Source: Klebsiella pneumoniae (GTDB lineage Bacteria; Myxococcota_A; UBA796; GCA-2862545). From it: a DNA stretch of 64,000 bases. Positions 56,709-64,000 of the stretch are shown here, piece by piece (positions within the stretch are counted from its first letter, which is position 1; the number at the start of each line of letters is the position of its first letter). A model generated the notes under the pieces. It did no database searches and was not told where the DNA came from. It saw only the letters and a program-made list of their open reading frames with translations. The stretch lies in NCBI GenBank assembly GCA_945861065.1, contig CAMASI010000008.1:1-64000 (forward strand), given 5' to 3'. A program made the translations under genes and the position numbers.

Positions 56709-57442
56709 CGACCGAACCGCGCCAACAAGGGCCGCGCCATGTCGCCATCATCATGGACGGCAACGGACGGTGGGCTCATTCGCGTGGCCTGCCACGTCAA
56801 GACGGTCACGAGGCGGGTGCCGAATCGGTGCGTGAAATTGTGCGCGCGGCCGGCGAACTCGGAATCGACGTGCTCACATTGTATAGTTTTTCGACCGAGA
56901 ATTGGGCGCGTCCTGAGGCAGAGGTCGACGCGCTGATGCGCCTGTTGGGTCGGTTCCTGGTGGATGAACGCGACGAGATGATGCGAAATCGCGTGAGACT
57001 CGGCGCGATTGGGGATTTGGAACGGTTGGATCCGGTCGTGAAGAGCCTGCTGGACGTTGCCATCGCCGCTACCGAAAGCAACGATGGGCTTCGGCTCTTC
57101 CTCGCGCTGTCCTATGGTGCCCGAAGCGAAATCGTACATGCTGCGAAAGCCGTCGCGGCTGAGGTCGTTGCGGGTCGTTTGACCGTGGATGAGATCGATC
57201 AGGGCCACCTAGAGCGTCACCTGTCGATGGCCGGCCTGCCGCATCCCGACCTGCTGATTCGCACGAGTGGGGAAATGCGGCTGAGCAACTTCTTGCTCTG
57301 GCAGGTCGCCTACGCGGAAATCGTGGTGACCGATGTGCCGTGGCCCGACTTTCGACGCGAACACTTGGTCGCCGCGTTGGACGAATATGGGCGGCGGCAA
57401 AGGCGGTTCGGGCGAACCGGCGCCCAGTTGTCCTCGTGCTGA
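56705..57442 (+). CDS. uppS: undecaprenyl diphosphate synthase
   Basis: 245 residues from GTG 56705, overlapping the frr stop by 4 bases. HVAIIMDGNGRWAHSRG holds the catalytic Asp; GHEAGAESVREIVRAA, LYSFSTENWARP, and the C-terminal DLLIRTSGEMRLSNFLLWQ with AYAEIVVTD are diagnostic. It makes the lipid carrier for cell-wall and O-antigen sugars. Confidence 0.95.
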   Translation: MTTEPRQQGPRHVAIIMDGNGRWAHSRGLPRQDGHEAGAESVREIVRAAGELGIDVLTLYSFSTENWARPEAEVDALMRLLGRFLVDERDEMMRNRVRLGAIGDLERLDPVVKSLLDVAIAATESNDGLRLFLALSYGARSEIVHAAKAVAAEVVAGRLTVDEIDQGHLERHLSMAGLPHPDLLIRTSGEMRLSNFLLWQVAYAEIVVTDVPWPDFRREHLVAALDEYGRRQRRFGRTGAQLSSC

Positions 57443-58242
57443 TTCGCACGGTAGCCGCTGCGTTTGCGCTTGCGATCGTCCTTCCGCTGTTGGTGTGGGG
57501 AGGCGTTGCGGGTACGGCCGCGCTGGTCGCGGTGGCGTCGGCGATTTGTATTCACGAATTTGTCGGGATGGCGCTGCCGTCTTGGCGCGGCTGGGGCCAC
57601 ATTGCCGTGGGATTGCCGTGGCTCTGCATTGCGGTCGCGGGGTGGACGGTCGGGGCAATCGGCGCATTGGTGACGGCATCGATTGCCTTCGTCGTGCTGT
57701 TTGGCTCGATCGCGCTTCGTCCGGGAGCAGATCTGCCGGTGGCGGTAGAGCGCCTCGCTCGCGTGACCCTTGGACTTGCGTGGATCGGTCAACTTGGTTG
57801 GGTGATTCCGATCCGGAATGAAGCGTCGGGAGGGGCCTGGCTTGCGCTTGCGCTGGTGGTGCCGTGGTGTGGCGACACGGGCGGGTACATTGCCGGCCGT
57901 TGGTTGGGTCGAACGCCCATGCATCCCGCGGTCAGCCCGAAAAAAACGATGGAAGGCGCTGCCGGATCGATCATGTCTGCCGCGGTCGGGGCCGAAGTCG
58001 TGCGTTGGTTGTGGCTCTCTGAACTCCCGCTTGGGTCTGGGGTTCTTCTGGGGGCCATGCTCGCTGCTGTGGCCATTGTTGGAGACCTGGCGGAGTCGAT
58101 GCTCAAGCGAGCGTGGGGCGTGAAAGACACAGGCGCGATCTTGCCAGGGCACGGAGGTCTGCTTGATCGCATCGATTCCGTGCTCTTCGTGGCACCATGG
58201 GTGTACTTGGTGTGTACAATCGCTGGGGAAAAGCACGGATGA
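57436..58242 (+). CDS. cdsA: phosphatidate cytidylyltransferase
   Basis: 268 residues from GTG 57436, which overlaps uppS by 7 bases. Eight or so hydrophobic helices precede the CDS signature: CGDTGGYIAGRWLGR, VSPKKTMEGAAGS and the ending KRAWGVKDTGAILPGHGG plus LDRIDS. It makes CDP-diacylglycerol from phosphatidate and CTP. In many genomes dxr follows; here rseP follows directly. Confidence 0.92.
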   Translation: MLIRTVAAAFALAIVLPLLVWGGVAGTAALVAVASAICIHEFVGMALPSWRGWGHIAVGLPWLCIAVAGWTVGAIGALVTASIAFVVLFGSIALRPGADLPVAVERLARVTLGLAWIGQLGWVIPIRNEASGGAWLALALVVPWCGDTGGYIAGRWLGRTPMHPAVSPKKTMEGAAGSIMSAAVGAEVVRWLWLSELPLGSGVLLGAMLAAVAIVGDLAESMLKRAWGVKDTGAILPGHGGLLDRIDSVLFVAPWVYLVCTIAGEKHG

Positions 58243-59879
58243 TCGTCGTCGCCGGTCTCGTCATGTTGGGTCTGCTCGTCGTGATCCACGAAGGCGGGCA
58301 CATGATCGCAGCCAAGCTGTTGGGAATCGGCGTGCCCGTGTTCTCCGTGGGCATGGGCCCGCGAATCGCTGGAATTCGACTGTGGGGCACAGACTTTCGC
58401 CTCTCTGCCATTCCTGTTGGCGGGTACGTTCGAATGACCGGCGCGGATCCGTTTGGAGACGCTGAGGAGAGTGGTGAGGTGTTCGAGCGCCAGAATTTCA
58501 TGGCGCGCCCGGTTTGGCAGCGACTCATTGTCATGGCGGCCGGCCCTGGTGCAAACCTGTTGCTCCCCATCGTGTTGTTTTCTGCCGTGCTGATGGGCGG
58601 CGAGCCGCAGCCAGACGCGTCGGTCGGCTTTGTGACAGCCGAATCGCCGGCCTTCGTCGCGGGGGTGCGTGAAGGAGACATGGTCCGTCGTATTGGCGGG
58701 AACGCCGTTCTCTCCTGGGGCGACGTGATCGACGAATTGCTGGCGCGACCCGGCCAAACAACGAAAATTGATTTGGAACGAGACGGCGTCGCGATGGACG
58801 TCACGGTCCCAGGGTCCGCGATCGTTACGGTGGACGGATTGCTCGACGGCGACGCGCTGGGGATAGCAAGCGAGCGCCTTTCTTCGTCGATCGGGGTCGA
58901 TGATCCCTCGAGCCCTGCGTTCAGGTCTGGGCTTCGGACGGCCGATCGGGTGGTTTCTGTGGACGGGGTCGAGGTCCGTGACTGGCGAGGCCTGATTCGC
59001 GCCATCGGCCCAGGTGCGCACGCTGTTGTCGTGGACCGTGTCGCCGGCGCGGCGATCGAGCGCATCGAGGTCAAGTTGCTGGCGGACGCTTGGGCTTCGG
59101 CACGCCCCGACCCGTGGGCAAACGGTTGGGGAATCGTCCCGTTGCAGATGTTTGTCCGGCACGTCGTTCCCGAGGGCGCCGCGGTGGCTGCGGGGATCCT
59201 GCCGAATGATCGCCTGTGGTCGGTGGACGGGTCAATATTGCCAGATTGGAGAGGATTGACGCAGCGAATCATGGCGACCGTAGACGAACAGGCCGAGGCT
59301 GGGGCGCCAAGACCCGTGCGTGTCGAAGTCGTTCGCGAAGGTGCCATTGTTGGCGTTCAACTGGTGCCGACGTTGGTTCGGGAATTGGTACGTGTCGAAG
59401 CCAGGTATCGACCGATGATTGGGGTTCAGCGGTGGGATGGCGCGTTCGTGACGGCTCCGGAAGTGCGCCGCTACTACGGTCCATGGGAGGCGGTGGTCCG
59501 CTCTGTGCAGACCAGTCGGAGGGTGCTGAGCGATACGCTTCAACTGTTCGGCAACCTGTCGATCGGCAACGTCAAGGTCGACGAGGGCCTGGGAGGACCG
59601 GTCGAAATCTTCCGGCATGCAGCCGCCAGCGCGGAGGAAGGGATCTTTGCGTTTGCGCGGATGATGGGCATGATCAGCTTCAGCCTTGGGATTGTGAATC
59701 TGCTCCCGGTGCCGGTGCTGGACGGCGGACACATCCTGTTCTACACGTTGGAAGCGATTCGAGGTCGGCCGCTGTCGTTGGTCGTCCGAGAGCGATTGCA
59801 GATGGCGGGCGTGCTCGCGCTGGTTGCGTTGATGCTCTACGTGACGTGGGGCGAGGTGCTTGACGTCGTGTTCGGGTGA
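58239..59879 (+). CDS. rseP: RseP-type site-2 protease
   Basis: 546 residues from ATG 58239, overlapping cdsA by 4 bases. VIHEGGHMIA holds the zinc HExxH (His17, Glu18, His21); VPVLDGGHILF gives the LDG motif. At least two PDZ-like domains lie between (SPAFVAGVREGDMV, PEGAAVAAGILPNDRLWSVD). It is longer than the usual 450 residues, with an extra PDZ-like segment (SPAFRSGLRTADRV). It cuts membrane-anchored anti-sigma factors. Confidence 0.92.
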   Translation: MIVVAGLVMLGLLVVIHEGGHMIAAKLLGIGVPVFSVGMGPRIAGIRLWGTDFRLSAIPVGGYVRMTGADPFGDAEESGEVFERQNFMARPVWQRLIVMAAGPGANLLLPIVLFSAVLMGGEPQPDASVGFVTAESPAFVAGVREGDMVRRIGGNAVLSWGDVIDELLARPGQTTKIDLERDGVAMDVTVPGSAIVTVDGLLDGDALGIASERLSSSIGVDDPSSPAFRSGLRTADRVVSVDGVEVRDWRGLIRAIGPGAHAVVVDRVAGAAIERIEVKLLADAWASARPDPWANGWGIVPLQMFVRHVVPEGAAVAAGILPNDRLWSVDGSILPDWRGLTQRIMATVDEQAEAGAPRPVRVEVVREGAIVGVQLVPTLVRELVRVEARYRPMIGVQRWDGAFVTAPEVRRYYGPWEAVVRSVQTSRRVLSDTLQLFGNLSIGNVKVDEGLGGPVEIFRHAAASAEEGIFAFARMMGMISFSLGIVNLLPVPVLDGGHILFYTLEAIRGRPLSLVVRERLQMAGVLALVALMLYVTWGEVLDVVFG

Positions 59880-60523
59880 TCGTGCTTGCGGTGGACACAA
59901 CGGCGCCGGTCATCGGCGTCGCGGCGAGCGATGGGTTGCGCACGTTTAGCCGCGTGGGGCGCGTAGAAAGAGGAGCCGAGGCTGTTCTCGTCGAATGGTC
60001 CTGTGAGGCTCTGGCGGCTCTGGGCGCGTCGTTGCGTGACGTAGCTGGGGTTGGCGTCGCGATGGGGCCCGGCACGTTTACGGGAACGCGCGTGGGGCTC
60101 GCACACGGCCTGGGGATTGGCATCGCGAATGGGGCGCAGATGTGGCCTGGGGATGGCCTTGCGTGCCGTGCGCGCGCCGTCGGTGGGACCATGTCGGTGC
60201 TGACGCTGCTGGATGCCCGCCGGGGTCGGGCGTATGCGTCAGCTTTCTCGCCGGACGGGACTTGCACCCATGCTGCGGCCGATGCGCCGCTGAGCGATGC
60301 GCTCGGGTGGATGGTTGCCCCCTTCGTGGCAACCGGCGAAGGTGCCTTGTTGTGGAAAGACGATGTCGAGCGCGCCGGCGGGTGTGTGGCGCAGAATGCA
60401 GACGACCCAGCTGTCCACGTGCTTGTCGCGGACTCCTTTGCGACGATCAGCGCTGGCCAGGGCGTTCCTGTGAGTCGAATGACCCCGCGTTACCTCCGCG
60501 CCCCAGGTGTGGAGGCGCGTTGA
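59876..60523 (+). CDS. tsaB: tRNA t6A synthesis protein TsaB
   Basis: 215 residues from GTG 59876, overlapping rseP by 4 bases. IVLAVDTTAPVIGVAA and GVGVAMGPGTFTGTRVGLAHGLGIG are the TsaB motifs (GPGSFTGLR). It dimerises with TsaD as inactive chaperone half. The Cys/Ala-rich middle is less conserved, as expected. Confidence 0.85.
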   Translation: MIVLAVDTTAPVIGVAASDGLRTFSRVGRVERGAEAVLVEWSCEALAALGASLRDVAGVGVAMGPGTFTGTRVGLAHGLGIGIANGAQMWPGDGLACRARAVGGTMSVLTLLDARRGRAYASAFSPDGTCTHAAADAPLSDALGWMVAPFVATGEGALLWKDDVERAGGCVAQNADDPAVHVLVADSFATISAGQGVPVSRMTPRYLRAPGVEAR

Positions 60524-61527
60524 CGGTAGCGGGAAGTGGAAGCCTGTCGGTGGCGGTCCTTGGCGCTACCGGGTTGCTCGGCGCCGAAATCGTGCGTGTG
60601 TTGGACGCGGCGCCATGGCGGCCTGCCCGACTCGTACCGCTAAGCAGCGGCCGGTCGTCTACAACACATGTGGACTGGGGTGAGGACCGGGTTGTGGTGG
60701 ACGATTTGTCCGATCAGGCGCTCGGGGAAGTCGACTTGGTCATTCTGGCCGCTCCGAGCGCGGTGTCGCTGGAGGCGGGCCGCGATGCGCTCAAACAGGG
60801 TGTGTCGGTCGTGGATTGTTCCGGTGCGCTCGCGGCGGAGTTGCCGGTCTTGGTGCCATGGATCACCCCGGAGCTGCTGCCTCGTTTGGAACGCGGCGCG
60901 GTGATTCCAGCGGCGCCTGCGCTGCTTGTGGCGAGTATTGTGGCACCACTTCGCCGTTTGGGCGTCGATGCGCCGGTGTCGGCGACAGTCATGTTGCCTG
61001 CGTCGACCGCGGGTCGAGCAGGACTCGATGAACTGTCCAAGCAGGTGGTGGGCCTGCTCAACGGCAGCGCCCCGCCGCGCAAAGTATTCGAGGGTGGCCT
61101 CGCTTTTGATCTTGTTCCGACGGTTGGAACGGTCACGCCGGGTGGGTGGACGACGCGCGAGAGAGACGTTGCGGCCCTCGTCCTTCGGCTGACGGGTGGG
61201 GAGGCCGCCATCGACGTCACCCTGGTCCAGGTGCCGGTCTTCAGCGGTATGGCAGCGGCCATCCATTTGATGGCGCGCGTGCCCGTGGACAAGGTCCGGG
61301 AGGCGTTGGAGGCTTCGGGCTTGGTGTTGTCAGAGACGCGCTCAGGGCCTCGGCCTCGACGAATGGATGGGTTGGCATTTCCGCACGTGGGGCGGGTCCG
61401 CGCCGGCGCTGACGGCTCGGTGCATCTTTGGGTTGCGATGGACAACCTTCGTTGCGTCGCGACCGCAGCCGTACACGTCGCCGGTGCACTTTTGGCCCGG
61501 TCGGGCGCCCTACAAGCCCCGTCCTGA
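60520..61527 (+). CDS. aspartate-semialdehyde-dehydrogenase-like protein without catalytic Cys (USG-1-like)
   Basis: 335 residues from TTG 60520 (GGAGG 4 bases before; overlaps tsaB). VAVLGATGLLGAEIVRVL is the NADP-binding loop and VVDCSGALA fits ASADH. At the place of the active-site NCS the sequence reads VIPAAPALLVASIVAPL, and the later catalytic His region reads VPVFSGMAAAIHLMA instead of VPxxxGHxxAV. Both key residues are therefore gone. This is how E. coli USG-1 differs from Asd. It is unlikely to reduce aspartyl phosphate; a structural or regulatory role is more likely. Confidence 0.7.
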   Translation: MTVAGSGSLSVAVLGATGLLGAEIVRVLDAAPWRPARLVPLSSGRSSTTHVDWGEDRVVVDDLSDQALGEVDLVILAAPSAVSLEAGRDALKQGVSVVDCSGALAAELPVLVPWITPELLPRLERGAVIPAAPALLVASIVAPLRRLGVDAPVSATVMLPASTAGRAGLDELSKQVVGLLNGSAPPRKVFEGGLAFDLVPTVGTVTPGGWTTRERDVAALVLRLTGGEAAIDVTLVQVPVFSGMAAAIHLMARVPVDKVREALEASGLVLSETRSGPRPRRMDGLAFPHVGRVRAGADGSVHLWVAMDNLRCVATAAVHVAGALLARSGALQAPS

Positions 61528-61646: not shown

Positions 61647-64000
61647 ATGTGGCTCTCGATCCTGATTCCCTCGGCGTTTGCCCTGCCGCCGGACCGGCAA
61701 ACAGGCAAGGTGGACGTTGGGTCCAACGACGTAGAGCGGTTTGCGGTGTCGTCGGACGGCCGTTGGGTCGGGGGGCGTGACAAAGGGACGAAGGACCTCT
61801 TTGTGATCGACGTCGAAGACTGGTCGGTGCTTTCGGCGGCGCCCTGCGATGTGAGCGGTGTGGCCTTTGCCCCTGACGGCGTGGACGTCGACGTTTGGGT
61901 TGCGTGCGAGGACGGTTTTCTGCTGTTGTTCGGCGTGGATGACGGCGCCTTGGTTGCGCAGGAAGACAATGAGGGCGCGGCAATCTCGATTGACGTCGGC
62001 GAGGGTACGGGACTCGTCGGCGTGTGGCTGTACGACAACAGCACCGCCTCTACGCTGGTGCTCGCCAGTTGGGATTTGGCCGACACGTCCCCCGTAGGGA
62101 TTTACACGCTCGATTCTGGTGGTGCCAAAGCGGGCAGTCTACCGGTCAAGACGTCGGACACGGCGTCGGCCAAGTTCCAGGAAGGTGTTGTCGCCGGCTC
62201 GTATTTGATCATCGCACATGGCGGAGAAGACATGTCGGCGGTGAGCTTGCCGGCGGGTGCGGCGATCGCTTTTCCGATTTCCGCGATTCAGCCGGTAGAC
62301 ATCGCTGCGGGTGGCGCGGGTTTCGCCTACGGGGTGGATGATTCAGGCGTGCTCGGACGCTATTCCGCCTACGACGGCGATTTTCCAACACTTTTGACGG
62401 GTTTGCCCAGCCCGCAGGCCGTGGCGGCCAACATCTCCGACGACGGAACGGACGACTGGTTGGTCGTGTATGGCGACGACGTTCAGATCTTTAGTTTCAA
62501 CCAATATATCCTCGATACCGAGCCGCTCCACGTTTTCCCGATCGAGGACGAAGACGGCAGCACTGTGCAAGACGCAGTCGTCTCCGATGGGTACGTGTTT
62601 GGCGGGGGCGAGGGCGGCAAGGTCAAAGTCGCCAGCGCGCGCCCGTGGGTGTACCCGGACCTGTTGTTCCTGGCCTCGGTGGGCACGCCCGGTGGAACCG
62701 ACGGCGAACATGTGCCGGGCGATGAGATCACGCTGACCTTTCAAGTCGACACCGACGCCACCTGCGACGTGCATCTGGGCGGAAGCCGCGTGGGCGATGG
62801 GGTGGTGCTCGACGGTGGAATCGAAGCGCTGACAGACATCCCGGTGGCGTCCAACATCACGGTCGACGAGACGTGGGACGAAGGCGACAACTTCGTTTAC
62901 ATCGTTTGTGTCGACGACACGACGCTGCTGACTGGCCACGCGGCCGCGCACGTGGATGTGGATGCGCCGCCACAGCCTCCCGTGCTGACGGGCGCAAACT
63001 TGTTGTTTGCCGACGAAGCGCTTGAGCTGACCTTTGAGGGCATCGACGACGAGGACCTCGACCACTACACCGTCTACGTGTCCGATTCGTCGTTTACAGC
63101 GAGCGACTGGGCGACGGGCGGTCCTGCATTCACAGAAGGTACGTTTTCGGCGCCACTCGATGTGAACGCGGCTGCCGAGGAATCGATAGACTTGCGGCTC
63201 GAACCGTTGACTAACTACAAAGAATATTGGGTGGCCGTCCGCGCTTTTGACGCGGGAGGCAAGGAAGGTCCGATGAGTGTTGTGTTGTCAGAGACGCCTC
63301 GCCCTACGTTCACCGCGGCCCAGCTCGCCGGCGAACGCGGCGGCACGCCTTGGTGCGGAACGACGGGTGCGCTTGCGACTCCCTGGTGGCTTGTTGGTGG
63401 CTTCTTGGCGATGGTCCGTCGACGAGGTCGCTCTGGGGTCGTCGGGGCTGCCCTTGCGGTCGCCCTGGTGCCAGGGGTGGCATTCGCTGGCGAAAATGGC
63501 GACATGGAGCGCCGATCGCATGGAAATTTCGAGGCCCGATATGGCACTGTTGGCTTCGCGACCGTCGACGGGAAAAAGAACCCGATCGACAAGGTCTACA
63601 CCGAAGCGCCCGATGACATCCTGTGGATCGAAGCGGGGCCGCAGCTGTTCCACATCGTAGAAATCGACTTCGGTACGGGATTTCTGCAGAGCCTCGCCAA
63701 GACCATAGACGGTTCGGGTTCGCAGTCGGCGGACAAGACGATGTTGACTTGGTGGCCGTTCATGGTGGACGGCACGCTAAGGCTTGAGATCGTGGACGAG
63801 CAATGGGTCGTTCCGTTTGCGCGCGGCGGATTTGACTACATCATTTACAGCGAGAGTTCCGACAACGGCTCGGGCGGAAAGGACAAACTCCATGGTGCCA
63901 AGATCGGCAACCACTATGGGTTTGGAACCAACTTGTTGCTCGATCCGCTGGCCCGAGCGCGGGCGAGTAAACTCGAAGCCCAGACTGGAATCAACGACAC
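61647..64000 (+). CDS. surface protein with MYXO-CTERM-like tail fused to an outer-membrane barrel (partial)
   Basis: Open from ATG 61647 to the window end (784 residues seen), with a signal peptide (WLSILIPSAFALP). Residues 20-400 look like a beta-propeller-type repeat region (SSDGRWVGGRDKG, GVAFAPDGVD). Residues 470-560 resemble a fibronectin type-III domain (YWVAVRAFDAGGKEG). At 570 comes CGTTGALATPWWLVGGF with an Arg cluster (591-595), a MYXO-CTERM-like sorting tail. Without a stop the chain continues SGVVGAALAVALVPGVAFA, a signal peptide with an AFA cut at 614/615, then an outer-membrane beta-barrel (NHYGFGTNLLLDPL, SKLEAQTGIND). One chain thus carries two exportable proteins. Internal ATG 63411 lacks a good ribosome site. 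Confidence 0.7.
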   Translation, partial: MWLSILIPSAFALPPDRQTGKVDVGSNDVERFAVSSDGRWVGGRDKGTKDLFVIDVEDWSVLSAAPCDVSGVAFAPDGVDVDVWVACEDGFLLLFGVDDGALVAQEDNEGAAISIDVGEGTGLVGVWLYDNSTASTLVLASWDLADTSPVGIYTLDSGGAKAGSLPVKTSDTASAKFQEGVVAGSYLIIAHGGEDMSAVSLPAGAAIAFPISAIQPVDIAAGGAGFAYGVDDSGVLGRYSAYDGDFPTLLTGLPSPQAVAANISDDGTDDWLVVYGDDVQIFSFNQYILDTEPLHVFPIEDEDGSTVQDAVVSDGYVFGGGEGGKVKVASARPWVYPDLLFLASVGTPGGTDGEHVPGDEITLTFQVDTDATCDVHLGGSRVGDGVVLDGGIEALTDIPVASNITVDETWDEGDNFVYIVCVDDTTLLTGHAAAHVDVDAPPQPPVLTGANLLFADEALELTFEGIDDEDLDHYTVYVSDSSFTASDWATGGPAFTEGTFSAPLDVNAAAEESIDLRLEPLTNYKEYWVAVRAFDAGGKEGPMSVVLSETPRPTFTAAQLAGERGGTPWCGTTGALATPWWLVGGFLAMVRRRGRSGVVGAALAVALVPGVAFAGENGDMERRSHGNFEARYGTVGFATVDGKKNPIDKVYTEAPDDILWIEAGPQLFHIVEIDFGTGFLQSLAKTIDGSGSQSADKTMLTWWPFMVDGTLRLEIVDEQWVVPFARGGFDYIIYSESSDNGSGGKDKLHGAKIGNHYGFGTNLLLDPLARARASKLEAQTGIND

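Follow-up and report, generated by a model that had tools for sequence, protein, structure and literature searches.

The window, a stretch of 64,000 nucleotides, ends inside a long open reading frame on the forward strand that starts at an ATG at position 61647, remains open beyond the window end and continues on the contig to position 64124, encoding 826 residues (stop codon at 64125-64127). An aspartate-semialdehyde dehydrogenase-like gene is its upstream neighbour and truA begins 12 bases after it. The translation starts with a short putative signal peptide (MWLSILIPSAFAL, 61647-61685), judged by eye and matched by comparable hydrophobic leaders in homologues; eye and hydropathy likewise served for every other assignment of a signal peptide, of topology or of a cleavage site. 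It is followed on the same strand by a predicted beta-propeller (residues ~14-335, 61686-62651), whose AlphaFold2 model had WD40-type propellers as its best Foldseek matches, and by two Ig/FN3-like beta-sandwich domains (residues ~336-550, 62652-63296) recognised in the model and through NCBIfam matches. An internal MYXO-CTERM-like tail (63345-63431) comprises Cys570 (63354-63356), a helix at about residues 571-590 and the Arg cluster RRRGR (residues 591-595, 63417-63431). A second, internal signal peptide (SGVVGAALAVALVPGVAFA, residues 596-614, 63432-63488) ends in A-F-A, with a predicted signal peptidase I site after A614, and the remainder (residues 615-826, from 63489 to the window end at 64000 and onward to 64124) was assigned to the MXAN_2562 family of 8-stranded outer-membrane barrels from model NF040596, structure models and a fold search. 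Sequence and model thus confirmed the original prediction, which had placed a tail at residues 570-595, a signal peptide ending in AFA at 596-614 and then a barrel. The MYXO-CTERM-like tail is not at the very C-terminus, as 231 residues lie downstream of the Arg cluster.

The AlphaFold2 model of the fusion protein (mean pLDDT 89.5) contained the propeller, the two Ig/FN3-like domains and an 8-stranded barrel at residues 626-825, with a low-confidence linker at residues 571-580 and 593-620. When the barrel was modelled alone (pLDDT 91), its best PDB folds were OmpA, NspA, Ail, OmpX and OmpW, and these models identify the C-terminal half as an OmpA/OmpW-like outer-membrane beta-barrel of 8 strands. 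The Pfam search gave no significant family for the fusion protein and the PDB search gave no sequence relative of the barrel. Counting matches at E values up to 1, NF040596 (MXAN_2562 family barrel) matched 55/55 members from the order of the window genome, with a best E of 1.2e-31, and NF045522 (MXAN_2561 family MYXO-CTERM protein) matched 53/55. The window protein itself scored 79.8 bits with NF040596, whose curated cut-off is 100 bits and which some fused relatives matched with 106.6 to 219.3 bits, and 28.8 bits with NF045522, below the curated cut-off of 150. Judged by the latter score, the first half is a distant relative of the MXAN_2561 family and not a member. The NF045522 match spanned residues 424-592 and stopped one model position short of the family end, so that the join sits where a separate protein would stop.

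The distribution of this gene was studied by searching 94 genomes with the window protein and the whole order with a junction-barrel profile. It was present in 60 of the 63 genomes of this uncultured myxobacterial order, in one frame in 55 and in two frames in five; contig ends cut three of the 55 one-frame loci. The open fused frame was retained across six families, and the five split loci all belonged to a single genus, g20; there the upstream frame ends in a stop codon past the Arg cluster, and the barrel gene, after a gap of 9-10 bases in four loci, begins with a start codon and a signal peptide of its own. Because g20 falls within an otherwise fused order, its sequences are most simply read as a fusion that has split again. 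Comparison with homologues, which could have revealed a stop codon at the junction in every one of them, therefore upheld the original prediction, the stop being confined to one genus. Its statement that the frame is open without internal stop and is no obvious assembly error stood as well: the frame runs to 64124, and the same junction occurs in 55 genomes of the order and at 20 loci outside it, far more than chance could explain. Most of the genomes compared are draft assemblies, and that of the window is a draft in 147 contigs, which might speak for an artefact of assembly, binning or sequencing; this explanation, whose probability we put close to zero, was ruled out by selection on the frame and by dozens of independent assemblies that have the same fusion, one of them a single contig (L108).

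The junction was also conserved in detail. Across the 55 aligned members of the order, which are 24 to 51% identical to the window protein, C570 was invariant (55/55; one of 11 invariant columns) and R592 nearly so. The succession of a Cys, about 20 hydrophobic residues, an Arg/Lys cluster, a second hydrophobic stretch and an AxA-like site recurred in the 75 fused ORFs examined, in agreement with the proposal of two hydrophobic helices with an Arg loop between them. Hydropathy and position in the fused ORFs placed a transmembrane helix after the Cys, as in a MYXO-CTERM protein, and the RRRGR of the window protein corresponded to 3 to 6 Arg/Lys in most relatives. The second segment had the pattern of a signal peptidase I substrate, with a positive n-region, a hydrophobic h-region and an AxA-like site; the latter was found in 75/75 fused ORFs, although this loose motif is by itself a weak test in Ala-rich segments, and one Ala column at the predicted cleavage site was invariant in 13/13. 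The second h-region usually lay directly after the Arg cluster, so that the sharing of the cluster by both signals would be literal, as had been proposed when the cluster was taken for both sorting tail and n-region. In close pairs, pooled pN/pS was 0.42 for the helix plus Arg cluster and 0.53 for the second signal, versus 0.35 and 0.21 in the flanking domains, and the excess of third-position substitutions continued across the join. These substitution patterns indicate that the reading-frame constraint extends through the junction. The MYXO-CTERM model TIGR03901 matched 12 of the 55 members, weakly (best E 0.00084), and no match to it was listed for the window protein.

When 379 genomes of the phylum were searched, the same join appeared in other families too, and 20 further fused loci were found outside the order, one of them in the single-contig 5.85 Mb genome L108. 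A scan with a 13-row junction-barrel alignment gave 17 loci in metagenome-assembled genomes whose labels were mostly Deltaproteobacteria, Myxococcales or Proteobacteria and in a few cases odd; viral contigs gave no relative. In the split relatives, the upstream gene stops just past the Arg cluster, and a barrel gene with a separate signal peptide follows, usually with an ATGA overlap (four bases in nine loci, one base in three and seven in one). On a tree of 104 barrels, the fused or split label required at least 14 changes, seven of them forced by well-supported (starred) branches, and a single grouping of all fused rows was rejected (p-AU 5.9e-70). This was a quick tree with hand-picked loci outside the order, two split loci (L132 and L133) had no recognisable partner adjacent and adjacency was not checked for six more (L067, L138, L141, L143, L145 and L147), so that the count of changes is a guide and not a census. 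With that reservation, the sequences suggest that the MXAN_2561/MXAN_2562-like pair has alternated repeatedly between overlapping genes and in-frame fusion across the phylum. In four loci (L121, L125, L127 and L136), the MXAN_2561-like half ends in a CFI-box-CTERM-like region, from which the frame continues through basic residues and a signal peptide into the MXAN_2562 barrel; scores were above the cut-off in both of the two such loci that were scanned.

The split relatives are coupled genes, and this could mean that in the fused ORFs ribosomes reinitiate in frame next to the Arg cluster, the long frame being incidental. In the window, an ATG (Met589, 63411-63413) lies ahead of the cluster and is the sole candidate ATG for such initiation, without a Shine-Dalgarno sequence of at least four bases, and 61/75 fused ORFs had an ATG, GTG or TTG within the cluster or in the 12 codons before it. 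However, that interval held an ATG in only 17/75 and no start codon at all in 14/75. A start preceded by a Shine-Dalgarno sequence (at least four bases) was found in 2/75 fused ORFs, compared with 25/43 N-terminal ATG starts and 14/19 split barrel starts, and the frame stays open in six families of the order. The start-codon and Shine-Dalgarno counts led us to reject internal initiation as a conserved mechanism, and we regard it as very unlikely to explain the fused frame.

The sequences show that one conserved frame joins an MXAN_2561-like MYXO-CTERM-type surface protein to an MXAN_2562-family barrel. We consider it probable that this gene encodes a two-destination precursor, cut by a myxosortase and by signal peptidase, in which one Arg cluster serves both signals. 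The N-terminal signal peptide would initiate export, and the first helix, that of the MYXO-CTERM tail, would halt transfer and hold the Arg cluster on the cytoplasmic side. This cluster would then also act as the n-region orienting the second signal, which would resume export. Signal peptidase I, whose presence was assumed, would cleave after A614 and free the barrel, which would reach the outer membrane via BAM (also assumed to be present). The myxosortase would cleave near Cys570, probably lipidated (Lgt being assumed), and the propeller protein would proceed to the surface via type II secretion. After both cuts a two-helix hairpin of about 45 residues would remain, and the fusion would fix a 1:1 ratio of partners that are elsewhere encoded by translationally coupled genes. 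RseP-type proteases can clear membrane remnants, and a link between the leftover hairpin and the RseP-like M50 protease with PDZ domains that is encoded, together with cdsA-like, tsaB-like and asd-like genes, ahead of the fusion (57340-61527) is thus conceivable.

Both cleavages at the join are inferred, and parts of the machinery were recognised in the genomes. The genome of the window encodes a myxosortase (L074) that scored 113.1 bits with Mrt_core (cut-off 100) and 171 bits with MrtP, below the MrtP cut-off of 250, and it also encodes GspD (488.7 bits). The myxosortase core was matched in 63/63 genomes of the order; it scored above the cut-off in 59 of them and in 0/14 control genomes. The same genome also has a CPBP-family protease (L076:1438-2217, minus strand), whose best NCBIfam match was the archaeomyxosortase MrtA with 59.9 bits (cut-off 200).

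Two readings with fewer cuts were considered. Signal peptidase alone might free the barrel, leaving the first half held in the inner membrane by the helix or hairpin, with a Cys motif that is no myxosortase substrate; the weak or absent TIGR03901 matches and the chance that a tail within a hairpin is a poor substrate are consistent with this. Nevertheless, the Cys invariant in 55/55, the myxosortase core in every genome of the order and the true C-terminal position of the tail in split relatives make it unlikely, as does the dependence of TraA cleavage by myxosortase on the conserved cysteines (PMC11980579). Alternatively, the continuous frame could yield a chain that is never cut and works as a single two-part envelope protein. 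Such a chain would be anchored in the inner membrane by its two-helix hairpin and in the outer membrane by its barrel and would have to span the periplasm, and split and fused forms interchange repeatedly, so we regard it as highly improbable. This interchange is easiest to understand if cleavage of the fused product yields the two proteins that the split genes encode, and as a pattern in the sequences it is the main, though indirect, argument that the chain of the proposed precursor is cut at the join.

The reading suggests that a single bacterial precursor can give rise to two proteins with different targets; to our knowledge, hardly any bacterial precursors are known whose two products go to different sites of the envelope. 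The FbcH cytochrome b/c1 polyprotein of Bradyrhizobium japonicum is divided into two envelope proteins by signal peptidase acting at an internal signal sequence, as proposed here; unlike in the present fusion, both products belong to one inner-membrane complex, and neither a sorting tail nor a second protease is involved. Literature searches on bacterial polyproteins with internal signal peptides found no relevant work, and no mention of MXAN_2561/MXAN_2562 was found in the literature searched. These two families match the two halves of the fusion and correspond to two overlapping genes in many relatives. TraA and TraB of M. xanthus, whose ORFs overlap by four bases (PMC3325183), resemble the split pairs in this overlap and in placing an outer-membrane protein after a MYXO-CTERM surface protein; unlike the fusion, they are two genes, and their domains differ (PA14, Cys-rich repeats and OmpA). 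Another close parallel is MXAN_5598 of Myxococcus xanthus, where an internal MYXO-CTERM is followed by a beta-barrel and an OmpA domain (Guo, Haft and Wall 2025, PMC11980579); its authors suggest that the protein arose by gene fusion and that its N-terminal part is processed, and they compare it with TraA plus TraB. It shares with our fusion a mid-protein MYXO-CTERM motif that has a surface region before it and an outer-membrane barrel after it, but it is one atypical ORF of another protein family. The passage on it describes no second signal peptide, shared Arg cluster, order-wide conservation or fusion and fission. The concept of an internal MYXO-CTERM was thus already published, while the order-wide conservation, the recurrence in the phylum, the sharing of one Arg cluster with a second signal peptide and the series of fusions and fissions appear to be new.

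The fusion is well conserved and real, and the mechanism is likely but unproven. We lean towards a general bacterial architecture, with rather less confidence than for the single gene, in which a sorting tail and a signal peptide stand back to back on one Arg cluster and two membrane proteases would release a surface and an outer-membrane protein; it would have been gained or lost repeatedly in the phylum and would occur also with a CFI-box tail and with OmpA/TraB-like barrels. Overlapping genes, fusion and re-split fusion form a natural series of one pair, which allows testing of a sorting tail away from the C-terminus, of one Arg cluster for two signals and of which of the two enzymes, myxosortase or signal peptidase, cuts first. 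A further prediction from the fusion is a joint role at the cell surface for the uncharacterised proteins of the MXAN_2561 and MXAN_2562 families.

OmpA/TraB-like fusions of the general kind of MXAN_5598 were present in this order too. This second fused family (L094, L095, L097-L101, L103, L104 and L107; frames of about 600 to 1700 residues) has a surface region, an internal MYXO-CTERM, an Arg cluster, a signal peptide, a barrel and an OmpA domain, and in genome G018 the two parts are in separate adjacent frames. A further frame of 969 aa (L096, in G042 C124) contained FG-GAP-like repeats, an internal MYXO-CTERM-like tail and a second stretch resembling a signal peptide, and its C-terminal part, which is unrelated, may be a barrel. 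Finally, in family f7 (L063, L064, L068 and L071) a barrel-less MXAN_2561-like gene lies directly before truA, as the fusion does in the window contig, and the barrel pair is located elsewhere.
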